From: a virus
IMG/VR virus record: IMGVR_UViG_3300025128_000055
Span: 1-52,037 of that record
DNA length: 52,037 nucleotides
Reading direction: 5' to 3' (one strand)
Shown: in pieces, positions 1 through 14,377 of the stretch
How the letters are laid out: every line of letters begins with the position of its first letter
How positions within the stretch are numbered: the stretch's first letter is position 1
Program-made: the position numbers and the translations under genes
Notes under the pieces: model-generated
Databases searched by the model: none
What the model was told of the DNA's origin: nothing
The model's input: the letters and a program-made list of their open reading frames with translations, nothing else

Positions 1-133
1 TATCTCTTTGACGAACCCAATTCAATACGGATTTTGTGTGAGCGGGATACCACTCATTATCTATCCAACTCGGCCCAGCTTGTTTAGAGGGTGCATAAGT
101 GGATTCCATTAATAAATCTTTAAGTTTAATCAT
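1..133 (-). CDS. Partial gene, hypothetical protein (N-terminal part)
   Basis: An open frame begins with an ATG at 133 on the minus strand and runs off the left edge of the window. The visible 44 residues start MIKLKDLLMESTYAPSKQAG and are hydrophilic. The ATG overlaps the TGA of the upstream gene (ATGA junction), so it is probably the next cistron of the same operon. The fragment is too short to assign a family. No signal peptide is visible, unlike its upstream neighbours. Confidence 0.55.
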   Translation of the reverse strand, partial: MIKLKDLLMESTYAPSKQAGPSWIDNEWYPAHTKSVLNWVRQRD

Positions 134-738
134 TTTAAATCTTCCGTAGCCTTATCAATTGCCTTTCTTAATGCACCGCCAATTTCACTCTGATTAAATG
201 GTAATTCTTCTTCTATTTGTAATCCTGCTGCAGATGCAGATGTGGTGATAACACCTATACCTCTACCTGTCATGACTCTATTTGTTACTGTCTCACGTAT
301 CAAAACATTTATACGAATTTCAGTATCGGTCTTTCTGTTATTAAAAAACCCAAGAATACTATATGCCTGATTTGGTCTACCATACCAAACTATTTCTGCA
401 GATGCTACAAAATTTGCATTGTCATCATCTACTAATTTATATTTACTATCTAAAAATGCCTCTTCAAGTAATTGACGAACCCCCATTGTGGTTTTGGCAT
501 TATCCTCAATACCAATGTTTTCTGCAACTCTAACAAACTCACTAATCTTTAATGTGGGTACAACCAAGTCCTCACCCAAGATAGCAGGTTGTGGTAGTAC
601 ATTTTGTTTTTGTTCTTGTCTTTTTTTCTCACGTTCTTTTTCACGTTCCATTCTTGAACGCATAATCTCACCTTGACCTGATGCTATTTCCATCATAGCG
701 AACCCAAGTAGTAAGAAAATTAAAAATCTACGTTTCAT
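130..738 (-). CDS. Secreted CsgG-related protein
   Basis: This 202-aa protein has a clear N-terminal signal peptide (residues 1-21, ending near IASGQ) with no lipobox cysteine, then a highly charged Arg/Lys/Glu/Gln helix at about 25-48. The C-terminal half (about 60-200) has the alternating pattern of CsgG/FlgT-like periplasmic domains: a strand on inheritance of activity (ASAEIVWYG), a strand RINVLIRE, a glycine-rich turn (GRGIGV) and a terminal amphipathic helix (GALRKAIDKATEDL). CsgG forms the outer-membrane channel for curli subunits; this copy is shorter and not lipidated, so it may be an accessory factor. AGGAGA precedes the ATG. It is the second CsgG-like protein in the operon. The family call is by pattern only. 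Confidence 0.5.
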   Translation of the reverse strand: MKRRFLIFLLLGFAMMEIASGQGEIMRSRMEREKEREKKRQEQKQNVLPQPAILGEDLVVPTLKISEFVRVAENIGIEDNAKTTMGVRQLLEEAFLDSKYKLVDDDNANFVASAEIVWYGRPNQAYSILGFFNNRKTDTEIRINVLIRETVTNRVMTGRGIGVITTSASAAGLQIEEELPFNQSEIGGALRKAIDKATEDLK

Positions 739-747
739 TTTTGTCTC

Positions 748-1764
748 CTAAAAATAAGTTCCAACCAATATAGAGAAAGTTTTATTTCTATCTCCATAAT
801 CATTTACAACTGTATTATATCCCATTGATAATCCTATATTAAATGTAAATGCAGTTCCTACTTTCCAATCAAAAGAAACTGTTGGAAGAAATATTATGGG
901 ACTTCTCAATAATAAATATCGACCACCCTCAATATTCCCTTCATAATATCTCAATAGTGTGTATGCTATATAATTAGAGAATGTCACCTCACCAAAGTTA
1001 AATTTAGCTGGATATCTTGTTGCATATAAAGCGGTTACATTACCAAAAGCAACTTCACTTACTCTACCATAACTCATTGTTAATACTGCAGCCTTTGGAT
1101 TGGTTTGAAATATCGATTTTGCTACGGAACCACTAATTAACCAATCCCATCCCTCAAATGTCCTATATGTCAATCCACTTGTAGACAATTGAAGATTTTG
1201 TTTTTTTGCTGTATATTTGATTCCTCTACCATACGTCAAAGAACCCTTTTTAAAATCAGTAGTAAAGTTAAAGTTACCATCATGAGTACTATTACCATCA
1301 AATGCAGTAGCAGTATAAACATTATTTATTTGAGTAATCCATTGGTCACTACTTTTTGTAGAACGTAACGCATAGTTAACTTGTGTTGGTTCATTACTAA
1401 CATCACTTTTACTAAATTGTCCAGTAATGTTGTCAGCTATGACTGAGGATAAGACTTCCTCAGCAACCCTAACTGCACATGGAAACAAAGCTTGAAAATC
1501 TTGATAAACTTGTTCAGTCCAATCACTTATAGCATATATCGGTTCACCCGTTACAGGATCATAACGAACAATCTTTAATGCTTCATCTAATGTAAAAAAT
1601 TTACTACGATTATAATATGTGACCTGAAACCCTTCTACTCCATTATTTAAAACTATAGTAGATTGTACCGTACCCTTTTGACAAGGATCTACATATGAAT
1701 AAAAAAATGATTGGGCAGAAACACTACTCCCTAATAGTAAAAATAGTATTAGTTTCTGCCACAT
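748..1764 (-). CDS. Probable outer-membrane beta-barrel protein
   Basis: About 338 aa, read from the ATG at 1764; a TTG four codons earlier would overlap the preceding gene. A signal peptide (MWQKLILFLLLGSSVSAQ) is followed by a mature domain rich in alternating aromatic and polar residues. The chain ends in aromatic TYF, as outer-membrane barrels do. Two cysteines near residues 30 and 97 could form a disulfide. It lies between two CsgG-like genes, with 5 nt separating it from the upstream stop codon. I do not recognise the family. Its position suggests a partner of the CsgG-like proteins in outer-membrane export or surface anchoring, which is inference. Confidence 0.55.
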   Translation of the reverse strand: MWQKLILFLLLGSSVSAQSFFYSYVDPCQKGTVQSTIVLNNGVEGFQVTYYNRSKFFTLDEALKIVRYDPVTGEPIYAISDWTEQVYQDFQALFPCAVRVAEEVLSSVIADNITGQFSKSDVSNEPTQVNYALRSTKSSDQWITQINNVYTATAFDGNSTHDGNFNFTTDFKKGSLTYGRGIKYTAKKQNLQLSTSGLTYRTFEGWDWLISGSVAKSIFQTNPKAAVLTMSYGRVSEVAFGNVTALYATRYPAKFNFGEVTFSNYIAYTLLRYYEGNIEGGRYLLLRSPIIFLPTVSFDWKVGTAFTFNIGLSMGYNTVVNDYGDRNKTFSILVGTYF

Positions 1765-1769
1765 CCATA

Positions 1770-2402
1770 TTACCAACCTCGTCTGTCAATTGCTTTTATA
1801 ACATTGACTACGGCTGTCTCCATAGCTTTATTTGATGCGGAACTCAATGAACTTTGATTCCAATCCATATTAGGATTAATCAAGAATCCTTTACCTATGG
1901 TTGAAGCAGTTCCTCTTCCACTACCTACAACATATTGTGTATTTTCATTGTTGATAAGTTTTACTTGTATACCAACAAATGTTTCATTAATTGTTTCAAC
2001 TTTACCTGCCTTGATTTCTTCTTTTAGGTTTACACCAAAATCATAAATCGTTACAGAAGCCGAATACTTAGCTTTCTCAATTTTTGCGTTGTTAGCTTTC
2101 AAATCATTTAGAATCAAAAGTTGCATATCTCTTTCAGCTTCAATCAAGTTGAACCTACCAATGTAAGATATTACGTTTTGAAGTTCTTGAACTAAACCCA
2201 TAGAAACTCGTTTCTCTGCAAGTTCAGGATATCTTTCTTCTAACTCTTTGTTGAACTTCAAGTCATAGAGTTTCAATCCATCTACTTTAGTTACTTCAAC
2301 TTCATCTAATGATTTTTGTTTTTCATATTCACCAACATATTGTTCAGTTGATACTGATGCAGCACAACCAAGAAATACTAATAAAGGTAAGAATTTTATC
2401 AT
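1770..2402 (-). CDS. CsgG-like outer-membrane lipoprotein (curli-type secretion)
   Basis: This 210-aa protein starts MIKFLPLLVFLGCAAS, a lipoprotein signal whose lipobox (FLGC) puts the acylated cysteine at residue 13. The rest matches the CsgG layout: an N-terminal strand and helix, a central segment on a degraded or self-regulated metabolite-like loop (LIEAERDMQLLILNDL), a strand ASVTIYDFGV, the strand VGIQVKLINNENTQYVVGSG, and a C-terminal helix (NKAMETAVVNVIKAIDRR). CsgG assembles as a nonameric outer-membrane pore that secretes curli fibres in bacteria. I recall CsgG-like genes being reported in some marine T4-like phages. The SD is AGGAGA. Confidence is fair for the family and low for the substrate. 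Confidence 0.65.
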   Translation of the reverse strand: MIKFLPLLVFLGCAASVSTEQYVGEYEKQKSLDEVEVTKVDGLKLYDLKFNKELEERYPELAEKRVSMGLVQELQNVISYIGRFNLIEAERDMQLLILNDLKANNAKIEKAKYSASVTIYDFGVNLKEEIKAGKVETINETFVGIQVKLINNENTQYVVGSGRGTASTIGKGFLINPNMDWNQSSLSSASNKAMETAVVNVIKAIDRRGW

Positions 2403-2864: not shown

Positions 2865-3725
2865 TTAAATCTCCAAATTTATTGTTAATCTAATTGTATT
2901 AGTAAGAGGATTATCCTCTTTACCATAAATATAACTCATATTCAGTAAATACTTATCATATTTCATTCCAGCACCAAAAGTTAGATACTGTAATTCGTGT
3001 GTTTTATCTACATAATATCCACCTCTACCAAACAAAGTGTTATTGTAGTTATACATTACTCCACCACCCATAGTGTAAAACTTTTTAAATACATTGTATT
3101 GTTCGTAAAATGTCCATTGTTTATACGGATAACTCATACCAATATTTAAACTTGTGGGTAATTCAGTTTTATAATCATTAAATGTTGGTGCAAATCCAAA
3201 GTTACTTAACTGAACATCAATATCCAAGTCTTTATACACCTTTGGTAAATATGTTGCAATATCAAATGATGTACCAAGTGTCTTCTGACTAAATAAATGA
3301 TGAGAAATTAATTTACCAGTAACTCCAATATTATAATTTTTAACTTTACCTCCCCAATTCATACTCCATACCGAACTTGTAGGTGTAAAATCACCAACCA
3401 CAATACCACTCTCATTAGTTTCTAATTGTGAACCATAGTTAAAAGCTAACATACTAAATCTAAATTGTTGTTTCTTTATTGATACGTGGGTATAATACAT
3501 ACCATCAGTAATATTTTGCATCCAATTAACTCTACTAAAACCTACATTATCTTTCAGTAAGGAATTACGAGCAGGATTCATAAATGGTAAAAATACATCA
3601 CCAACAGAACTTACTTGTGCAGTCGGTGGTAGTGTGAGTATTCGATTAGCCTGTGCTAATAATTGACTACCCAACGATAATAATATCATTAAACCAAATA
3701 ATATCCAAAATTTATTTTTTTTCAT
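2865..3725 (-). CDS. PorV/PorQ-like outer-membrane protein (type IX secretion)
   Basis: A 286-aa protein with a signal peptide (residues 1-25, ending LLAQA). It continues with the hallmark N-terminal layout of the PorV/PorQ (UPF0164-like) barrel family: a Leu-rich start, AQVSSVGDVFLPFMNPARN (the NPA motif), then repeated short beta strands with Gly and aromatic residues, and a terminal strand NTIRLTINLEI. In T9SS bacteria PorV is an outer-membrane shuttle that carries cargo with a C-terminal sorting domain to the attachment complex. The gene lies two cistrons downstream of a gene with such a sorting domain. Its start overlaps the 35-aa gene (ATGA). A phage-borne PorV-like gene is unusual. Confidence 0.7.
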   Translation of the reverse strand: MKKNKFWILFGLMILLSLGSQLLAQANRILTLPPTAQVSSVGDVFLPFMNPARNSLLKDNVGFSRVNWMQNITDGMYYTHVSIKKQQFRFSMLAFNYGSQLETNESGIVVGDFTPTSSVWSMNWGGKVKNYNIGVTGKLISHHLFSQKTLGTSFDIATYLPKVYKDLDIDVQLSNFGFAPTFNDYKTELPTSLNIGMSYPYKQWTFYEQYNVFKKFYTMGGGVMYNYNNTLFGRGGYYVDKTHELQYLTFGAGMKYDKYLLNMSYIYGKEDNPLTNTIRLTINLEI

Positions 3726-3829
3726 TTTTTTCTTTCTACTCTTTCAGAAAACCACACGATAAATTTCATCGTATAATATAATGCTGGTAACATCAATGCT
3801 ATTACTAAAAAGAATTGCCATTCATCCAT
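3722..3829 (-). CDS. 35-aa single-pass membrane peptide
   Basis: A short frame encodes 35 residues: an acidic start (MDEW), a hydrophobic helix at about 5-27 and a basic tail (SERVERKK). Its ATG overlaps the upstream stop codon (TAATG) and its TGA overlaps the next ATG (ATGA). Coupling on both sides strongly supports it as a real gene, translated between the T9SS cargo and the PorV-like protein. The inside-positive C-terminus predicts N-out, C-in topology. Function unknown. Confidence 0.6.
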   Translation of the reverse strand: MDEWQFFLVIALMLPALYYTMKFIVWFSERVERKK

Positions 3830-6636
3830 TATTTTACCACCGTAAATTTAGATGTTTTGATTCTTTTATCTGTTTGTAAAACAAATATATAAACACCTGG
3901 TTCTAATTTTTGATGTGATTCATATACACTTTGTTCAGGTATCCAAATGCTTGGTTCGTTTGTAAAATCAAAATAATGTATTCCTGACAACACGTGTTCA
4001 TTTAATAGTGTTCCAACTCTCTGACCGATAGAATTTAAAATATAAAGTTTAACATTTTGTGGTTCAGAAAGATAAAACTGAAACTTTGTATTCTCTGTAA
4101 ATGGGTTTGGAAAGTTATAAGTTATTTCCTCGTTCTCAGGTTTTTTACCACCGAACAACCAATACTTGTTCCATACACGAACCAAACCATCATCACGTTT
4201 CATTGTCAAGTCTCTACCAGCTGGTGATGCTGCAGCATATTTACCGACAAATCTTATCGGTGCATCTGTCCACTCACCAGGTGGGAAATCAGCAGAAAAT
4301 AATAATTTCAACCCAACTACCTCTTTGTTAATTAAATATCTTTCTGGTGCGTTACTTGGTGAGTAATCCATACCACCAAAAGAAACTCTTTGCCACCCAT
4401 CAACAACTTCACCTACATTTACATATGTCATCCACGGCCCTGGTAACACATCAGTTTTTACATCTATAAATGTCAAATCTTCAGGTTTAAATTCTATTTC
4501 AAATTCAAAAGCTGCTATAGTAACACCCTCATTAGGTGTAACAGTTAGAGGAACTTCTATCTGATTACCAGACTGAACTCTAACAGTAGAATCACTTGGT
4601 AATGAAAGTTTAACATTATACTCACCTATGTCAGATGTTAATTTCGATAAACTACCTGGTACATTAGGATCATAAATTTTATTAGAATGTTCACCTGGTG
4701 CACTACCACCTGCCCAACGATAAAATGTCGAACCATTTAATGTTTGATAACCAGAACTATTAGCGTTAGCAATACCTGAACCTGGATCAGATGTATTTGC
4801 ATTAGACATAGTAGCCTTAACTTTTGTACCCGTAGTGTTTATATCACCAGTGAAAAAGTAAGCTATACTGTCAAGTGTGAAATCTACAGGATCATCATAC
4901 AGATAACGTGAGGAATCCGCATCCCCATCAGGATTATTACCCACTAAACTAATATATAAAGTGTCTTGGCCAGTTACGATATCATTCATAAGTGGGTTTA
5001 TTGTTTCAATCTCACCATATGTAAGAGCCTGTGACTGATTAAAATTCTTATCCCAAAATACCGTGAACTCATATTTTTGTTTTCTTGTATCACCAGCCAT
5101 CAAAGTCTGATAGTAATTATATGTTGTATTAGTGCCATTAAAATTGTCAATCGAAGACCAATCTTGTAGTGAGTCTGCAACAACATCATAACTATGGTGT
5201 GCGTATTGACTCATAATACCCGATACATAACTCCATAAAATATATGTGTCATTTAAAAAGAACTTGTCATCACCATCAACATCACCGATAAAGTATTCAA
5301 TAGAATTTAACGTATCAATTCTTCCAGCACCACTATTATAATTGTGATGTTTACCTGATTGGAAATTAAATGACATAACTGCATCATTTATATTAGTAAT
5401 GGCCTCTCTATCAAATTTAGTTTGGTTATGATTCTCTATATCGTCATCATCATCAGGTGGCCAGAATGATATACGATAATCATTGTTTCTTGGTAACTGA
5501 ATATTGAAGTAACCCTTGTCATCAGTATAAGTTGAATCGTAATAACTTATACCTAAGAATCCATTACCCGTAGTTGTCTGAAGTGCAGTGGTTGACTTTT
5601 TATCATAATAATATGTACCAGCACCACCTATAACATCATCACTCAAGTCTTCGTCAGTTTTACTTGCGTCATTTGCAATACTTTGTATGTTATACCAATT
5701 AGATTTACCAGCTGCTCTTTCCCATAATTCAAACTTGACTTTCCAATATGGATATGTATTCTCGGTTGCGGTTGTAAAGGCCGAACCAACGGCTCTACCT
5801 TTACCTTGTACGTATCTAAAGTAACCCTCAACATCTAAAAGTTTTGGATGTAATGTAATATCACCACGAGCATTACCAACACCATCTGTTTGTGTACCAA
5901 CATTTCCATCTATATAAACTTTATAATTAGAAGCATAATTACCATTAGTTAAATAAGTATAATATCCTGTACTACCCTCATAGTTAGTAGCCACTCTAAA
6001 TGATTGTGGTGAAAAATTATCAACAACATCATTTATTTTAAAATGTAATTTTAACAATTCTGTTTGGGTATTATTTCCATTACCAAATGTCTTAACGTTT
6101 CCGTTATGTGATACCATTGTAATTCTTAACCAATCGTATCTAGCTGCACTTACAGATTTCTCACTACCAGCTGCAGCTAGTGAATCAGTATACCCAACAT
6201 CTGCATAACGAACTACTTCATACGAATAATGTGCACCAGCTGCACTATCTCCCTCAGTCCATCCATTAATATATGCACCTTTCTCTACACGTGTTGAGTC
6301 GTGTCCCCAAGTTATTAAATCATTATCAAACACTAAATCTAAACGAAATGCAGTAACACTTGCTCCTTTATCATCAAGTGTAACGGCAATAGTCATTACT
6401 GAATCTCTCCAAGCATCAAAGTTATTATTTTTATAAGCAACACCAGAGGCAGCATTAGCAGTTGACATACCAGTAGTATCGTCAGCTAAATATCCTCTTA
6501 ACTTATGAGTTAAGGTATCTCTCCACCAAAACATTGGTGTATCATATGTTCTTGATTGTAAAAGTCTAATGATTGGTGTTTGAGCATATGATAAACTCAT
6601 CACCATTATCATGAGACTTAATAGAAACTTGCGCAT
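3829..6636 (-). CDS. Large secreted protein with T9SS C-terminal sorting domain
   Basis: About 935 aa. I chose the ATG at 6636, because the frame extends upstream only through a TTG. A signal peptide (MRKFLLSLMIMVMSLSYAQ) is followed by a cohesin-like sandwich (about 80-205), a segment with Ca-loop residues GDVDGDD like a type I dockerin (about 450-475), a second cohesin-like region (about 680-800) and a C-terminal domain from about 838. That last domain holds NFPNPFTENTKF, VKLYILNSIGQ and GVYIFVLQTDKRIKTSKFTV, the Por secretion tail pattern that directs proteins through the type IX system to the cell surface. It heads the left-hand operon, 90 bp from the tail-fibre genes. No enzyme motif is visible; surface binding or display is inferred. 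Confidence 0.75.
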   Translation of the reverse strand: MRKFLLSLMIMVMSLSYAQTPIIRLLQSRTYDTPMFWWRDTLTHKLRGYLADDTTGMSTANAASGVAYKNNNFDAWRDSVMTIAVTLDDKGASVTAFRLDLVFDNDLITWGHDSTRVEKGAYINGWTEGDSAAGAHYSYEVVRYADVGYTDSLAAAGSEKSVSAARYDWLRITMVSHNGNVKTFGNGNNTQTELLKLHFKINDVVDNFSPQSFRVATNYEGSTGYYTYLTNGNYASNYKVYIDGNVGTQTDGVGNARGDITLHPKLLDVEGYFRYVQGKGRAVGSAFTTATENTYPYWKVKFELWERAAGKSNWYNIQSIANDASKTDEDLSDDVIGGAGTYYYDKKSTTALQTTTGNGFLGISYYDSTYTDDKGYFNIQLPRNNDYRISFWPPDDDDDIENHNQTKFDREAITNINDAVMSFNFQSGKHHNYNSGAGRIDTLNSIEYFIGDVDGDDKFFLNDTYILWSYVSGIMSQYAHHSYDVVADSLQDWSSIDNFNGTNTTYNYYQTLMAGDTRKQKYEFTVFWDKNFNQSQALTYGEIETINPLMNDIVTGQDTLYISLVGNNPDGDADSSRYLYDDPVDFTLDSIAYFFTGDINTTGTKVKATMSNANTSDPGSGIANANSSGYQTLNGSTFYRWAGGSAPGEHSNKIYDPNVPGSLSKLTSDIGEYNVKLSLPSDSTVRVQSGNQIEVPLTVTPNEGVTIAAFEFEIEFKPEDLTFIDVKTDVLPGPWMTYVNVGEVVDGWQRVSFGGMDYSPSNAPERYLINKEVVGLKLLFSADFPPGEWTDAPIRFVGKYAAASPAGRDLTMKRDDGLVRVWNKYWLFGGKKPENEEITYNFPNPFTENTKFQFYLSEPQNVKLYILNSIGQRVGTLLNEHVLSGIHYFDFTNEPSIWIPEQSVYESHQKLEPGVYIFVLQTDKRIKTSKFTVVK

Positions 6637-6725
6637 CCATTTCCCCAAATATTTACTAATTAATGTAACCTTTAGATTAAAAGGTATAGACTTTATTTAC
6701 ATACTATAAATATAATATATATTTG
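6637..6725. promoter_or_regulatory. AT-rich intergenic region before the T9SS operon, possible promoter
   Basis: Ninety bases separate the tail-fibre gene from the secretion operon. The region is almost pure A/T. It contains TATAAATA on the plus strand (near 6705) and, on the coding minus strand, a related TGTAAATA. A 6-bp hairpin (ACCTTT/AAAGGT, loop TAATCT) lies nearer the start codon. The T4 late promoter consensus is TATAAATA; here the exact match faces away from the operon, so a late promoter is only a guess. Confidence 0.3.
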
Positions 6726-8252
6726 TTAAACATCAAACCTAACGACAAAAGATGTATCGTATTGGTCATCAAGTTTAATTGGCTTGCCGAGTTTGGCATG
6801 TGCGAGTAACCTGTTTTGTTCATCATATAACCCTACTTGTGTAACATATGGTCTGAACTCCGAGTGTGTTACAAAATTTTCATATGTATCGGTGGCCTGA
6901 TATGATGATTGATAATCACCAATTCCACTTTCAAATCCGTGCCACTCTTTTAATGAAACAGAATCCCATATAACATCATCGTGTTGTGCATTCCTAAACA
7001 TAGAAAGTAAAACATAATGAGTATCAGAAGTTGCACGAAATGGAAGTTGCCAAGAACTTGTAAGTTCTGAAGTAGTAGTTCTCAATTGACTACTTATGGC
7101 CCTATAGTTACCTGAAAAATATTCATCATCTCCTATATAGACTTGTCCATAACCACCATTTGCTAAGCTTGTTCCTGGTCTATATTTACCAGTTATTAAA
7201 TAATCTTTTCCTTTTTTAACACTTATTTCTTGTGATGCTCGAGCAACATGAGCTGGCCAATTACCAGCACTTGCCGATAATATTAGTTCAGCATTAGAAG
7301 AAGTAAAGAGTGTCGCTGTACCATCAGTACTCCAATCTCCTAAAACTGAAGTACCATTAGTAGAAACAACTTGGTCAAATCCACCATTAGAAATTATTTC
7401 TCCTTTTGGTGCAGAACCAGGAGGTAACTTACTATAAGGTGATGTACTATATATTACTTGTTTTCTACCATCATCTAAAATGGGTTTTCCTGTTATATCA
7501 GTAATTACAGTTTCAGGCCCAGCAGTAATAGAAATACTACCACTTCTATCTTTAGTTGCACTTATGTTCATTGTGGAATTAAATTCATATTGGCCAACAG
7601 AACAAACATATTCATATTCATAATGTTTTTGAGTTGCCTGAAAGTCTAATGTATAAGCTGAACCGAACCCAACATCTCTATAAGAACCAGTATCGGTTAT
7701 GGTCATTATACCATGTTCGTAAAACACGTTACCAATTTGACTACCACTACCACTAACGTTTATTCCTTGAGACCTATCAAATGAACTTGATTTATATGCC
7801 GCATAACTACCAGAAAAATTTCCATAGTCATATAAATTGCCGTCTTCATCATCTCTAATGTCAAAAGTTTGTCCTAATGAAGTATCAGATAATTTAACAC
7901 TACCTGGTTTTATTCTCTCTCCTATTAGATTTCTTGGTATACTAAATACATTAGCAGTAGTAGATAATTCAGTTTTTTGGAGTTTCTTAGTATTAAATCT
8001 TCTGTGAATATCCTCATAGTATAATTTTCTAATAACACTATAAGTTGGAAGTGCGTAATAACTACTCGAAATTGAACCAGATACAATGTGAGTAACCGTA
8101 TCCGATGAGGTTGCATAATTATGATGTGAGCTACTTATAGCCCTAATAGCAAAATTACCAAAACTGGCACTATCGTTGTTAGTGACAGTAAACTTTTTAT
8201 TAGTTGTAAAAGACCTCTTGGATATATTTTGGGGGTCTATCAATTTATACAT
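6726..8252 (-). CDS. Tail fibre/baseplate-associated structural protein
   Basis: A 508-aa protein rich in Ser, Thr, Gly and Tyr with no signal peptide, as expected for virion fibres. Its last about 45 residues (VTQVGLYDEQNRLLAHAKLGKP) are clearly related to the end of the next upstream gene product (340 aa), which shows a shared C-terminal module. A carbohydrate-binding-like jelly-roll segment may lie near 290-430 (ISNGGFD, DYLITGKYRPG, WDSVSLKEW), a pattern seen in CBM domains of fibres. It ends the baseplate block. SD GGGG precedes the ATG. Confidence 0.6.
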   Translation of the reverse strand: MYKLIDPQNISKRSFTTNKKFTVTNNDSASFGNFAIRAISSSHHNYATSSDTVTHIVSGSISSSYYALPTYSVIRKLYYEDIHRRFNTKKLQKTELSTTANVFSIPRNLIGERIKPGSVKLSDTSLGQTFDIRDDEDGNLYDYGNFSGSYAAYKSSSFDRSQGINVSGSGSQIGNVFYEHGIMTITDTGSYRDVGFGSAYTLDFQATQKHYEYEYVCSVGQYEFNSTMNISATKDRSGSISITAGPETVITDITGKPILDDGRKQVIYSTSPYSKLPPGSAPKGEIISNGGFDQVVSTNGTSVLGDWSTDGTATLFTSSNAELILSASAGNWPAHVARASQEISVKKGKDYLITGKYRPGTSLANGGYGQVYIGDDEYFSGNYRAISSQLRTTTSELTSSWQLPFRATSDTHYVLLSMFRNAQHDDVIWDSVSLKEWHGFESGIGDYQSSYQATDTYENFVTHSEFRPYVTQVGLYDEQNRLLAHAKLGKPIKLDDQYDTSFVVRFDV

Positions 8253-8264
8253 TAGTATCCCCTA

Positions 8265-9287
8265 TTAGAAATCAAGCTTGACCTTAATTACAGCCTCCCT
8301 TGAGAATGATTTTAGAACAGGTTTACTTAACTTAGCAATTGCCAATAATTCACTATTATCATTGTATAATCCAACTTGAGTTACAAAAGTTTTAGGATCT
8401 CCCTCAAATGTAGTTTGTGTAAACACACCCTCAGTATCACCAGATTTAGTTGCGAATGTTGGATTGTTACTAAAGTTAAATTCTTTGTTATTCGCTCTAC
8501 AGAAATACATCGTTGAAGTTACTTCTTCTTCTCTACGTGCTGCAAAATATCCACCAGCACCATTCATTTGTTTAAAGAATTCAGATGGAGTATCATCAAA
8601 AGTATTTGTACTCTTTGTAGTAGTAACTAAAGCTTTTGATTGTATATAAGATGCATCCATAATTATAATTCCTAAATCAGGATAGAAATTACCAACGGAA
8701 CCTCCAGCGGCTGCTGTAAGAAATGTATCTGCCGTTCCACTTTGGATTGAACCACTCACAATATTAAAAACACGTCCTGCTTGATTCACCGTAGGTGTTG
8801 TGGTTGCTCCACTATCATCAATTAGTTTAACGAGAGGGAAAGTACTTCCGAGATGAAGTTCCCAATTACCTGGATCCATCTTCTCTCTCATACGAGCCCT
8901 ATTCATGACTACAAAAAATATATCATCAGAAGCAGAAGTGTAACTTGTAAATTGAAATTTATCTTGGTTTGGAGGTAAAAGAACATTAACAAATTGTCTA
9001 TACATTCCAGCAGTTTCTCTGTTACCAGCATTTGTTTTAGTTGTGTTTCCTATTGAACCACTTCCACCATGATGTGCGTATCCTACTGCAAATTGTACCT
9101 CTCTTGTCGAATCTGTCTGTGCCTTATCAAATACATTTAAGTAAGATGCTGAACTTGCACCTTGAGTAGATGCGGAATAGAAAGTTGTAAGACTTCCAGC
9201 TCCACCACTAAATAATCCACTTGATACCGTAGTTCTATCTGAGACTACATCCGTGTCTATAGTAAAATCTTTATATGCGTCTGCCAT
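8265..9287 (-). CDS. Tail/baseplate structural protein, paralogous C-terminus
   Basis: A 340-aa virion-type protein, Ser/Thr/Gly rich and without signal peptide. The C-terminal module FVTQVGLYNDNSELLAIAKL recurs in the neighbouring 508-aa protein. The segment RQFVNVLLPPNQDKFQF and the repeated short strands suggest an assembled fibre or wedge component. It sits between a 207-aa conserved structural protein and the 508-aa fibre in one operon. I cannot match it to a named T4 gene product. Confidence 0.55.
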   Translation of the reverse strand: MADAYKDFTIDTDVVSDRTTVSSGLFSGGAGSLTTFYSASTQGASSASYLNVFDKAQTDSTREVQFAVGYAHHGGSGSIGNTTKTNAGNRETAGMYRQFVNVLLPPNQDKFQFTSYTSASDDIFFVVMNRARMREKMDPGNWELHLGSTFPLVKLIDDSGATTTPTVNQAGRVFNIVSGSIQSGTADTFLTAAAGGSVGNFYPDLGIIIMDASYIQSKALVTTTKSTNTFDDTPSEFFKQMNGAGGYFAARREEEVTSTMYFCRANNKEFNFSNNPTFATKSGDTEGVFTQTTFEGDPKTFVTQVGLYNDNSELLAIAKLSKPVLKSFSREAVIKVKLDF

Positions 9288-9303
9288 TTTTTAATTCCTT
9301 ATA

Positions 9304-9927
9304 TTATGCGTTGGGGTCTGCTAAAGTTGTTATAGTTATAGACTTAGTTACACCAGTTTGATTACCAGTAACAGTCAATCTTGCTGATTTAGCCGTACGT
9401 AATTGTCGTGCTTCTAAACGAACTTCACCACTTGTTGAAACAACTGCAGTTCTTTCATTTTCCTGTTTTGATTGCTCAGTAGAACTGAATGATACTTCCC
9501 CATTCACAACATTCTTCATGAATGCAACATCTGTATCATTCAACTCAAAAGTATAAGTATCGTCATTGGAGTTAGTACTTTGAGCAATGATAGGAATTTC
9601 AGGCCCTCCGAAAGTTAAATCTGTATTTTGTGCGGAGAGATTCAATATTGGCATCCTCTTGGTGTTTTTATTCAACGTTATTAATTTGTATCTCATAACT
9701 TGATTTTGGTCAGTAAATGCCTCTAATATTGGAGTATTTTCAATAACTGCCCCATAGTAATTTGAACCATTAGGATGTGCAGTGTCCCATAGATTGTAAT
9801 CTACTTCGTCATCTGAAAGTGCAAATTTAGTGATGTTAAATGAACCATCACCTCGTGCAAGTAACTCACGACCTTTTTTTGTCAAAATAGCATCTACTGT
9901 GATGCTCGTGTTGTCTAAAAATCCCAT
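9304..9927 (-). CDS. Conserved phage structural protein
   Basis: A 207-aa protein that opens MGFLDNTSITVDAILTKKGR and continues with ELLARGDGSFNITKFALSDDEVDY. I recognise this N-terminal signature as recurrent in baseplate/tail regions of large marine phages, though no T4 equivalent name comes to mind. The C-terminal part (about 150-207) looks like an immunoglobulin-like strand domain (GEVRLEARQLRTAKSARLTVTGN). A strong SD, AGGAGA, precedes the ATG. It is the first gene after a 100-bp intergenic gap, so it may head its own transcript. Confidence 0.55.
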   Translation of the reverse strand: MGFLDNTSITVDAILTKKGRELLARGDGSFNITKFALSDDEVDYNLWDTAHPNGSNYYGAVIENTPILEAFTDQNQVMRYKLITLNKNTKRMPILNLSAQNTDLTFGGPEIPIIAQSTNSNDDTYTFELNDTDVAFMKNVVNGEVSFSSTEQSKQENERTAVVSTSGEVRLEARQLRTAKSARLTVTGNQTGVTKSITITTLADPNA

Positions 9928-10027
9928 ATTTTATCTCCTATTGATAGATGAGAAACGATAATTTTCCTCATACATAAATATATGTTTTGTTAAATTTTAA
10001 TCTAAATTTTCTTTTAGGTTAATCTCA
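9928..10027. promoter_or_regulatory. AT-rich intergenic gap within the tail operon
   Basis: A 100-bp A/T-rich spacer upstream of the 207-aa structural gene. On the minus strand it contains TATATTTATGTATG, similar to TATATTTATAGTATG in the gap at 6637-6725, and a small palindrome ACATA/TATGT. The two matching strings in otherwise unrelated gaps hint at a phage late control element. No sigma70-type -35 and -10 pair is visible. Confidence 0.3.
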
Positions 10028-13000
10028 TTAACCATTTTCTCCTGTTTTACCGTCTTTATAAAAGTCAGTAGTTCTTGGATTTGCCTTGGTATCGTCTACC
10101 AAACGTGATTCACCTGGTTCTACCGTAACAAGTCTTGTTGGATTTGTAAGTGTTATCTCTACTGCAGGATAGTTAGGATCGTTTTTATCAGCACCATGTG
10201 ATGTGGCTTGATAGAATGACCTAAACAAAGTTGAATCATACGCTACTGATTGAATTTCAGAAGGTACAAGTGAGTGACTATAATGTCCTATAAATGCTCT
10301 ATGACCAAGCCTAAAGCGTTGATATGTAGATGCTGAACCACTCAGAGCACCAATGTGTATTGGATTTACTCCAAAGGTTGGATGTAAGCTGGCAGAAAAT
10401 GCACTATCAAAATAGTATCTATATTCAAAATTGTGTTCTGATAATCTTGATGCCGTAATAACAGGATTAACTACTTCTTCAAATTTAATATCACCATCAG
10501 TAATCGATGCGTCAACATAATTAGTTCCCCACTCATTACTTTGAGTAACGTTTAGACTATATCGTGAAGGCATTGCAAGTGTTCCAATAGAACCCGACTT
10601 AGGTATCCAACGTGCTATATTACTTTCTCCCTCATAATATGGAAACTCACCCACAATTGTAAGGAAGTTATCATCAGAACCACTTATGATTCTTGTTGCT
10701 AATACACCTTGATCATATTGTCCAGCATTTTCATAATAATTACTTTCAAAAGTAGGTATTTGACCAAGTACTTCTTTACTACGATTTAATATATTTGGTT
10801 CAACTAATACACCAAGAGTAGTTTTTGCTCTAGCTGGCAATAGTGATTTAATTTGCTTAAATATACCACTATCGTAATACTTCAATATTCTTAAATAATC
10901 CCAAAAGTTATTTGACTTAGGATACTTTTTCCAATATGATTCTTGTATATCTTTTAATCCACGATAATCTTGTTCAAATTGGTCTCTTGGATCACCAATG
11001 TAATCATCATAATTTACATCAGCCAAACTATAAATAATATCCTTATCTACAATATCGGTTGGTGAAAAATAAACACCAAGTTTATTACTATCTACTGGTG
11101 CAAAATCAAAAGACGACTCTTGTAAAGTAGTATTAGGTGATAATGAACCAGTTAAAAAACTATCTTCAATTCGTATTTTATTTGAGTTTCTTCTAATTGC
11201 TCCAATATTAGGAATTGTCATTTCTTCAACTTCACTAATACTACGATAAAAATTATCTGTAAATGAATTTTGTGAACCTGTTCTTGCTGGATAAGTTGTA
11301 TTATCCACACTATTACTTACAAACCTAACTCCTGCCGAACCACTTAAATCTACATTATCATCAAATGTAAGTCTGTAAACTAAATTATCTGCGTGAGAAG
11401 ATGTAGTGTTTCCATTATAAGCCTTTGATGTTTTAACATGATTATCAAACTTACTTTGTGATAGAGGTTCAGTCCACAATCTATATTCCATGATTGAACC
11501 ACTAAAGTTATTCCCATCAAATGTAGTTCCTTTTCCACCAATGTATACAGCTGTGCTAGAAGTAAACGCACCATTTAAATCTATAGAACTCGTTGAAAAA
11601 CTTGAACTTGTTTCATAATTTATTTTCAATCTTGTAGCATCATATTGTTTTGTAACTAATTCATAAGTAACATCACGTGATACATTATCATCAGATAAAT
11701 CAGCACCACTCGCACTTCGTCTTGTTAACATCACACTCCACATCTCATCATTATAGAATTGTTGTGTTGATGATGTTATAAAAAATTTATCACTCGAACC
11801 ACTTAATTGAAACTTCAACTTTCCTTTATTAGTAACACCACCATCGAGAAGTGATATTGCCCATTCATTTCCTTTTTGTATTATAGTTTGGTTCTGTCTT
11901 TTTGGTGTTCTAAATCTAAACTCAATTGTTTCTGGTACTTTTCCGCTTAAATTATCGGTAGTCCATTGATGTTCTATATACTGACTACCTTTGAAATCTA
12001 ATGCATATGTGAACCTTCGTTGTAAATCCGTACTGACTCTATCGTTGTAATCTGGCCCACCAAATTCCCTCACACGTAATATAGTGCTCGGAATACCATA
12101 ACAATTTAATAATCCCTTTAGAGCACGAGTCGTACCTTTTGTTCTTTGTAAGTAAGGTAAGTTAGCAAGTATTCGTTTCCATATTTCTTCTGTTACTTCT
12201 TCTTGTGCCTTTTCATAAGTTTGTGAACCATCATCTATGTTTTTACCTAACAAATATTCTGAAAGATTTAATAAATCATTTCCATTAACAACTTCTAAAC
12301 CAGATGCCTTTGCTACGTGTTTTACAATATCTTTAGAAATTCCTTCTGAAAACTTAGCCTGTCTATCATTGATGTCAGTAAAATGTTTTAAGTATAACCA
12401 CGTTTCATCAAATTGTTGACCTATCATATCAACAAACTCTATAAAGGTATTACCCTCTCCATCAAACTTTATATGACCTGGCAAATTATTTACTAACCTA
12501 TTATCATTCATCGTATCATACAAGGATGCACTTTCAATCATATTATCATACCACGTAACGGCTACAGAACCAGTTGATGGTACTAATGTATAAGGACTTG
12601 TACTATTTTCTTTTGGCCAACTTGTGTCATGGAATTGACCTGCAGAACTTGATACATATGATGAAGATTCATTATAAAGAAAACTTTCATAGTGGTCAAA
12701 ACTATTTTTTACTTGGTCAATTTTAGTTTCATAAAACTCTTGTTTTTCGGTTGAACTTGAAACATTAGTAAACTGACTTTGACTCATAGTGTAAAATTCT
12801 ATAAGTCCTAACTTATATTTAAAATTTTTCAATCTTTCTTTAGCAGAACTAAAGTTAATAAAATTACCAAATCCATTGTCATTGTAATCTTGTAATTCAG
12901 TAGTTCTCTTTTGATAATCGACATTTACCTTAACATCTAACAAACTACCAGAGACTAATTTATCTTCAATATCTTGTATTACATCAGTATTACTTCCGAC

Positions 13001-14377
13001 TAAAGTATTATAGTTTTTAAAATTAGTCCCTCTAAATTCTATAGGTGAATCAGTAGAACCCAAATTGGGTAATCGTAAAAATGTAGAATTTTCTAAATCT
13101 AAATTTCTATCGAACGGAACTAATTTTATATTATCTTCAACTGATTCTAAAACTTCATTTACAAAATAACCTAAAGAAGAATCTTCAATATTATCTGATA
13201 ATGGTTCATAGAGTTTTATTCCAATAAATCCTTGAGAATCTGTAAACTCATTTGTGATTAAGTATGCCTCATCCTCAACCATCAAATAGGTGGTTAAATC
13301 GTCAACTCTATTTTCTGAATATGTTATGTATCCATTTTTATATGAAACTTTTGAAGACCATGAGTTTGTTACTTTAGGAAATTCACCAGTAGATTCACTT
13401 TCAATTTCTTCTTTACCTTGTTGCCAATCTTTACTCAGTAGTAATTGAGTTTTACCCAATACCTTTCTTATAGTGGCAACAAAATCCCTTTTTGTACGTA
13501 TTGTCTTTGTTGAAGAAACATATGTTTCATCTTCTTTCCATCCATAAAATGGTGCTACAATATTAGGATTACTATACTCTGAAGTACCTTTTTCACTTGA
13601 CAATGGTTCATTAAATCTTGTCCAAATATATTTTTTTCCGTCACTATGTAGGTATGGAGATGCTGGTTGAGGTGGAGCTCCACCTTGCTCAACTGGTGGG
13701 ATATCTGTAGGGTTTTCCGAATATGAAATTAAGTCTTTATCAAAATTAGGATCTGCAGTTAATTCTGGTGGTAGAATAACTTCCTCTACTTCGTAAACTT
13801 TAGGAATGGTTATCGTTCCATTTGTCATATCTTTTGTAAATCCAGGTTCATTATCTGCGATTGCTAAAGATAAGATTTGACCTTCATTTTGATCTGGATT
13901 TGAAAACGTCCATTGAGCATTTACATTAGGAACATTTTGAAATAATTTAAATCCATTTACTGCACCTAATCCATTTTGATATCCAAATAAATTAATTGCT
14001 GAACTTGGTCTTATTTCTACTTCAGTTCTATCCTTAGATATACTTGAAAGAAAATATTTGTTTGGATATGTAATACCTCGTTCTGTAATAGTCCCATCAC
14101 TACCAGCCAATGCTCTGTAAAAATAATAAACCACACGATACTCACCGTCAGTAATACCATTACTTCGTAAATGTTGACCGATGTTTATATCTATAGAACT
14201 ACCTTCAAAACGAAACGCGGAAGAGGGTGCATCAAAAGTGGTTACTAATGATTCATCTTTGTAATCATATACGTATATTCTCGCATAATCAGCACCTTTA
14301 CCAAAATTACTTTTAGTTGTTTGTGATGATTTTAATAACGATTTATCTCCGTCTGATAATCCCTTTACGTCAGGCAT
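10028..14377 (-). CDS. Giant baseplate/tail-fibre protein with LamG-like domain
   Basis: A 1449-aa protein, the largest in the window. At about 700-770 it contains a P2 gpI/T4 wedge-like helical segment (EEIWKRILANLPYLQRTKGT, KGLLNCYGIPSTILRVREFGG). At about 790-990 lies a concanavalin A/LamG-like sandwich (YALDFKGSQYIEHQ, IEFRFRTPKR, VYIGGKG, GSIMEYRLWTEPLSQSKF), a fold used to bind glycans. The remainder is Ser/Tyr/Asn rich. Position next to gp6-like and gp25-like genes suggests a baseplate wedge-to-fibre connector that may also touch the host surface. Exact T4 counterpart uncertain (gp7 or gp10 are candidates by place only). Confidence 0.6.
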   Translation of the reverse strand: MPDVKGLSDGDKSLLKSSQTTKSNFGKGADYARIYVYDYKDESLVTTFDAPSSAFRFEGSSIDINIGQHLRSNGITDGEYRVVYYFYRALAGSDGTITERGITYPNKYFLSSISKDRTEVEIRPSSAINLFGYQNGLGAVNGFKLFQNVPNVNAQWTFSNPDQNEGQILSLAIADNEPGFTKDMTNGTITIPKVYEVEEVILPPELTADPNFDKDLISYSENPTDIPPVEQGGAPPQPASPYLHSDGKKYIWTRFNEPLSSEKGTSEYSNPNIVAPFYGWKEDETYVSSTKTIRTKRDFVATIRKVLGKTQLLLSKDWQQGKEEIESESTGEFPKVTNSWSSKVSYKNGYITYSENRVDDLTTYLMVEDEAYLITNEFTDSQGFIGIKLYEPLSDNIEDSSLGYFVNEVLESVEDNIKLVPFDRNLDLENSTFLRLPNLGSTDSPIEFRGTNFKNYNTLVGSNTDVIQDIEDKLVSGSLLDVKVNVDYQKRTTELQDYNDNGFGNFINFSSAKERLKNFKYKLGLIEFYTMSQSQFTNVSSSTEKQEFYETKIDQVKNSFDHYESFLYNESSSYVSSSAGQFHDTSWPKENSTSPYTLVPSTGSVAVTWYDNMIESASLYDTMNDNRLVNNLPGHIKFDGEGNTFIEFVDMIGQQFDETWLYLKHFTDINDRQAKFSEGISKDIVKHVAKASGLEVVNGNDLLNLSEYLLGKNIDDGSQTYEKAQEEVTEEIWKRILANLPYLQRTKGTTRALKGLLNCYGIPSTILRVREFGGPDYNDRVSTDLQRRFTYALDFKGSQYIEHQWTTDNLSGKVPETIEFRFRTPKRQNQTIIQKGNEWAISLLDGGVTNKGKLKFQLSGSSDKFFITSSTQQFYNDEMWSVMLTRRSASGADLSDDNVSRDVTYELVTKQYDATRLKINYETSSSFSTSSIDLNGAFTSSTAVYIGGKGTTFDGNNFSGSIMEYRLWTEPLSQSKFDNHVKTSKAYNGNTTSSHADNLVYRLTFDDNVDLSGSAGVRFVSNSVDNTTYPARTGSQNSFTDNFYRSISEVEEMTIPNIGAIRRNSNKIRIEDSFLTGSLSPNTTLQESSFDFAPVDSNKLGVYFSPTDIVDKDIIYSLADVNYDDYIGDPRDQFEQDYRGLKDIQESYWKKYPKSNNFWDYLRILKYYDSGIFKQIKSLLPARAKTTLGVLVEPNILNRSKEVLGQIPTFESNYYENAGQYDQGVLATRIISGSDDNFLTIVGEFPYYEGESNIARWIPKSGSIGTLAMPSRYSLNVTQSNEWGTNYVDASITDGDIKFEEVVNPVITASRLSEHNFEYRYYFDSAFSASLHPTFGVNPIHIGALSGSASTYQRFRLGHRAFIGHYSHSLVPSEIQSVAYDSTLFRSFYQATSHGADKNDPNYPAVEITLTNPTRLVTVEPGESRLVDDTKANPRTTDFYKDGKTGENG

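Follow-up and report, generated by a model that had tools for sequence, protein, structure and literature searches.

Genes at the locus

The window analysed here is the whole virus record IMGVR_UViG_3300025128_000055 (52,037 bases), and its gene content, which includes a baseplate wedge protein, a 2OG-Fe(II) oxygenase, a peptide deformylase and Hsp20, fits a T4-like marine myophage. At one end of the window lie three genes in the minus-strand order A, barrel, B (Table 1). The original prediction had described a lipidated CsgG-like protein, a barrel-like protein ending in Phe and a shorter, non-lipidated CsgG-related protein following one another at this place, and we were able to confirm the open reading frames with their coordinates and order, the lipobox of A, the C-terminal Phe of the barrel and the shorter, non-lipidated nature of B. 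The barrel reading frame as listed (748-1776) begins at a TTG at 1776; translation more probably begins at the ATG at 1764, because this yields the N-terminus of most close relatives.

Table 1. The A-barrel-B trio and the genes upstream of it in the window
Gene	Position	Strand	Description	Basis
A	1770-2402	minus	CsgG-fold outer-membrane lipoprotein, 210 aa; lipobox FLGC, Cys13	ORF
Barrel	748-1764	minus	Outer-membrane beta-barrel candidate, 338 aa from ATG; ends ...VGTYF	ORF, family alignment
B	130-738	minus	Shorter paralogue of A, 202 aa; signal peptide without lipobox	ORF
Membrane protein	2412-2804	minus	Small inner-membrane protein; one hydrophobic segment and a C-terminal coiled coil	Family hydropathy
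PorV/PorQ	2865-3725	minus	PorV/PorQ family protein (type IX secretion)	NF033709, 104 bits
Cargo	3829-6648	minus	Putative type IX secretion system (T9SS) cargo, 939 aa; dockerin-like repeat, cohesin-like stretch, sorting tail	

Conservation of the trio

Our scans found relatives of A on 254 viral stretches and relatives of B on 120. Among non-identical loci with enough flanking DNA, and with A and B searched by separate queries, every A locus (81/81) also contained a barrel and had B no more than 5 kb away, and every B locus (84/84) had both A and a barrel; the median gaps from A to the barrel and from the barrel to B are 6 bp each. Because relatives are this numerous and the trio is intact wherever room allows, chance association can be ruled out. 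The three genes are thus one unit, as had been proposed, and this obligate unit is carried by many aquatic phages, including one cultured flavobacterial phage. The latter, Flavobacterium phage immuto, has the same order of cargo, membrane protein, A, barrel and B, and its module is annotated as hypothetical throughout, except for the cohesin-domain cargo. Just upstream of the immuto module (L047 9935-10513) is a gene annotated as DNA/RNA endonuclease G, whose product has an apparent signal peptide. We set aside a role of the trio as virion proteins because A, B and the barrel all carry signal peptides.

The barrel protein had no match in database searches. An alignment of its family (n=28) reveals a DPC...PC domain at the N-terminus, in which two cysteines are invariant, and among 102 distinct members, 98 of which have the DPC, the C-terminus displays alternating hydrophobic residues; this pattern, along with the C-terminal Phe, upholds the middle gene as an outer-membrane barrel candidate. 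Immuto-type barrels also contain a long hypervariable, low-complexity linker region.

Relation of A and B to CsgG

Searches of Pfam, NCBIfam and PDB sequences with the single sequences of window A and B returned no CsgG match, and CsgG searches with single sequences and shallow profiles of A and B gave nothing useful. At the level of the family, seven out of 45 A relatives matched Pfam CsgG (PF03783), with E values from 8.5e-5 up to 0.5, a cellular A from an Ignavibacteriales bin exceeds the Pfam cut-off (28.6 bits against 20.8), and a profile of A aligned over nearly its full length with E. coli and phage CsgG, with an E of 2e-4 and a probability of just 46.5. The direct profile link between B and CsgG is weak (E 0.041). 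The comparison of A with B by hhalign gave a probability of 98.5 and an E of 1.6e-15, or 2.2e-21 with cellular members added, and by this measure A and B are paralogues; their profiles merged on iteration and single-pass scores separated A from B. The description of both proteins as CsgG-related therefore holds at the level of family and fold only, being borne out by family profiles and predicted structure and not by single-sequence searches of window A and B. The sole match to LpoB (TIGR02722) in NCBIfam was a cellular A, at 27.7 bits against a cut-off of 110.55, and matches of B to ribosomal protein S1 were confined to one short stretch and were judged unrelated.

A lipobox was present in the scanned region of 58 of 101 distinct A proteins (absent in 43) and of 2 of 99 B proteins, and many B proteins are only 132-150 aa long.

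Predicted structures and the question of a CsgG pore

AlphaFold2 monomers were predicted for A with modest confidence (mean pLDDT 63) and for B with a mean pLDDT of 85. In Foldseek searches of the PDB, the best match of the A model was PelC (E 1.7e-8), and CsgG (6l7a, E 5.4e-7) matched along the whole length; the B model matched HpaA, LptE, the CsgG pre-pore (4uv2, E 3.6e-5), FlgT and PelC. A Foldseek search of a viral library gave no trustworthy match. We take the similarity to PelC, CsgG, LptE, HpaA and FlgT to be that of a shared superfold, and judged by these models it suggests periplasmic partners of a separate barrel, such as PelC and LptE, no less than it suggests CsgG.

CsgG forms its pore from two hairpins per subunit. 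The A model (mean pLDDT 63) has one long hairpin, 113-131/134-151, and no second, and the B model has loops at 121-135 and 168-184 in place of hairpins. The TM1-equivalent of A spans 18-19 residues, 33% of them charged, compared to 23 residues and 13% in CsgG, and its TM2 region is about 15 residues shorter than that of CsgG; the CsgG motif SGGVGARYFGIG was absent from A and B when they were compared with CsgG. The original prediction, which had offered a mixed-ring pore, was to be abandoned if the models came without CsgG hairpins, and this is largely what we see for B and partly what we see for A. With hairpin regions that are short and charged, the motif missing and no hairpins in the B model, a CsgG-style mixed barrel is unsupported and unlikely; the long first hairpin of A, at low confidence, leaves some room for one.

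If such a pore did exist, A, with or without B, would insert its hairpins to form an oligomeric channel of its own, and the barrel would be a separate protein. This would agree with the whole-length match of the A model to the CsgG fold, the matches of A relatives to Pfam CsgG and the length of the first hairpin. We nevertheless find it improbable, given the state of the hairpin regions, the fact that many B proteins are so short, and the lack of conservation of A lipidation. In addition, no CsgE, CsgF or curlin was detected by Pfam at an accepted score among the ten leftmost genes of the window; a line for PF17334 (Minor curli fiber component A) at 9304-9927 had an E of 0.069, under the cut-off.

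Upstream genes and type IX secretion

In 67 of 91 loci the gene immediately upstream of A encodes a small membrane protein, and BLASTP found no sequence similarity between the upstream membrane proteins of the window and of immuto. We considered a spanin for the window protein and rejected it, as its matches are coiled-coil background.

The next gene encodes a member of the PorV/PorQ family, with a score above the curated NF033709 cut-off of 90; it falls below the equivalog cut-offs for PorV and for PorQ themselves. It also matched the solved PorV structure 6h3i_F with an E of 1.6e-4 as a single sequence and 1.3e-10 as a profile. Without deduplication of loci, such a gene is found in 43 of 45 window-type loci and in none of 145 immuto-type loci.

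The long protein that follows has a dockerin-like repeat from residue 454, found by pattern, and a cohesin-like stretch at 688-733 (Pfam Cohesin E 0.0019, below cut-off). Its putative C-terminal sorting tail (846-937) scored 22.2 bits with TIGR04183, just under the cut-off of 23, and the immuto homologue scored 45.4 bits, well over it. Nearly all loci carry genes that we loosely label cargo-type, their profiles coh, lec and h14 having merged on iteration: 43 of the 45 loci of window type and 143 of the 145 of immuto type, again without deduplication. In the window the dockerin-like repeats, cohesin-like domains and T9SS tail make up a single protein, whereas in immuto (L047 10527-13422) the corresponding parts are spread over neighbouring genes. 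This fused versus split arrangement suggests that the parts may assemble through cohesin-dockerin contacts on the cell surface.

Cargo of this kind has been seen in phages before, and for the T9SS cargo of Cryophage a role in superinfection exclusion was suggested (PMC7468147). A, B and the barrel could themselves exclude superinfecting phages or mask receptors, while the T9SS cargo beside them acts independently, and the hypervariable region of immuto-type barrels would suit such a role. However, this would leave the near-universal cargo-type genes beside the trio unexplained, and we consider it to have only a slim chance, the smallest of the explanations weighed here.

Endolysins and a possible role in lysis

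The main rival to a platform for display or export is lysis, which the original prediction had also named. The trio and the membrane protein upstream of it would together reach across the envelope and, late in infection, open the outer membrane or make it unstable, in the manner of a spanin or gated pore. An endolysin with GH19 and peptidoglycan-binding domains lies about 7 kb or less from A in 21 of 36 non-identical immuto-type loci, and it is because an endolysin is so often close to the module that lysis has to be weighed; a membrane protein does adjoin the trio, and the CsgG/CsgF of phage Melnitz has been proposed to act in lysis (PMC9004378). Examples of GH19 endolysins are found at L212 3733-4560, at L213 9121-9954 and in many of the loci L062-L205, on varying sides. 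On the other hand, the side and distance of the endolysin vary while cargo-type genes are nearly constant, none was seen near A in window-type loci (few of which have long flanks), the spanin matches did not stand up, and the trio also occurs in bacterial bins. Taken together we regard lysis as unlikely, though less so than a CsgG pore.

Relatives in bacterial bins

A scan of genome contigs gave seven loci. Two (L209 and L210) are contigs with the window-type phage module and two (L212 and L213) carry the phage module with endolysins, and the other three (L211, L214 and L215) are apparently chromosomal. In L211, from a Bacteroidota bin, and L215, from a Deltaproteobacteria bin, a barrel-like gene, A and B are adjacent and cargo is absent. 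A caspase-domain (Peptidase_C14) gene stands beside the trio in both of these distant lineages (L211 7011-10899, L215 5345-9835). In L214, from the Ignavibacteriales bin, A and B are accompanied by a gene whose product weakly matches a transglutaminase and by an adjoining CHASE2-adenylate/guanylate cyclase gene (7956-13995); a cyclase gene is also near CsgG in phages HTVC008M and Melnitz. When 296 and 189 genomes (485) were sampled from the phyla of two of the cellular matches, only the query genomes themselves matched the A family. The trio is rarely found in bacterial bins.

Discussion

A phage-encoded protein of the CsgG fold is not new in marine phages, as CsgG and CsgF are known from pelagimyophages (PMC7029224), Melnitz (PMC9004378) and pelagipodophages (PMC9599517), and lysis or export has been proposed for them. 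The CsgG of those phages is 37-40% identical to that of E. coli, and A and B were not found by a search with E. coli CsgG. Those phages have a true CsgG with CsgF and curlin-type neighbours, whereas the trio consists of two diverged paralogues that flank a barrel and that, unlike the CsgG of those phages, have neither the CsgG motif nor full hairpins. We found no description of the trio in the open-access literature.

Two other systems offer a possible parallel in architecture. In the export of Pel polysaccharide, twelve copies of PelC make up a ring on PelB, a barrel protein (PMC12141448). The trio resembles that pair in that the best PDB fold match of A is PelC and in having a gene for a partner barrel, and differs in that we found no sequence relation, that it has two paralogues where PelC is one, and that no polysaccharide genes were seen beside it. 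The second parallel is LptE, which sits in LptD: B, a small, putatively periplasmic protein that matches LptE in fold, is likewise encoded with a candidate outer-membrane barrel. Here, too, no sequence relation was found, and LptD is much larger than the barrel of the trio.

With a barrel gene in every case, no pore made by A and B themselves is required, and a composite outer-membrane complex would be the simplest explanation. During infection, A, the barrel and B would assemble into one such complex, with the barrel embedded in the outer membrane. On the periplasmic side of the barrel, A, lipid-anchored in the window phage, and B would form a ring, a collar or a plug, placed like PelC on PelB or LptE in LptD and having no CsgG-type barrel of their own. 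The neighbouring genes for T9SS cargo and a PorV/PorQ protein hint that surface proteins are displayed or exported, and the export of upstream proteins raised in the original prediction is plausible because those proteins are putative T9SS-type cargo. The complex, with the membrane protein, the PorV-like protein and the tagged dockerin/cohesin-like cargo, may anchor or export a phage surface structure that passes through or beside the host type IX secretion system, and the surface of the infected cell would be altered, for example blocking further phages or holding cells together. The genes, the homology of A and B, the obligate trio, the fold matches, the PorV/PorQ family membership and the T9SS tail in the immuto homologue are established, whereas we infer where the proteins sit, their stoichiometry and contact with the barrel, that surface proteins are exported or displayed, and how the phage benefits. 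That A and B are periplasmic partners of the barrel in an outer-membrane platform exporting or displaying T9SS-type surface proteins is the explanation we favour, tentatively and at slightly less than an even chance. Against it count the long hairpin of A, which might yet insert into the membrane although its model is of modest confidence, the fact that the PelC and LptE matches are by fold and not by sequence, the nearby endolysin, which would fit lysis, and the variable lipidation of A.

In its fullest form, which is doubtful and clearly less probable than the platform itself, the proposal would describe a new outer-membrane machine of two CsgG-fold paralogues and a two-cysteine barrel, kept almost solely by phages and rare in bacteria, one branch of which couples a phage PorV/PorQ protein and would use type IX secretion to build the phage's own dockerin/cohesin structure on the infected cell. 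A sorting tail and a PorV/PorQ family protein encoded beside the trio recall type IX secretion and the Cryophage cargo (PMC7468147), and we found no report in the open-access literature of a phage PorV/PorQ protein or of phage T9SS cargo tied to a CsgG-fold pair.

Next to the curli pores carried by SAR11 and OM43 phages, the trio represents a separate, large and strictly conserved phage family with the same fold and a different architecture. As the trio is present in a cultured phage, immuto, a role in display, exclusion or lysis is directly testable. With the PorV/PorQ family protein beside the trio, the use that phages make of type IX secretion is extended beyond cargo.
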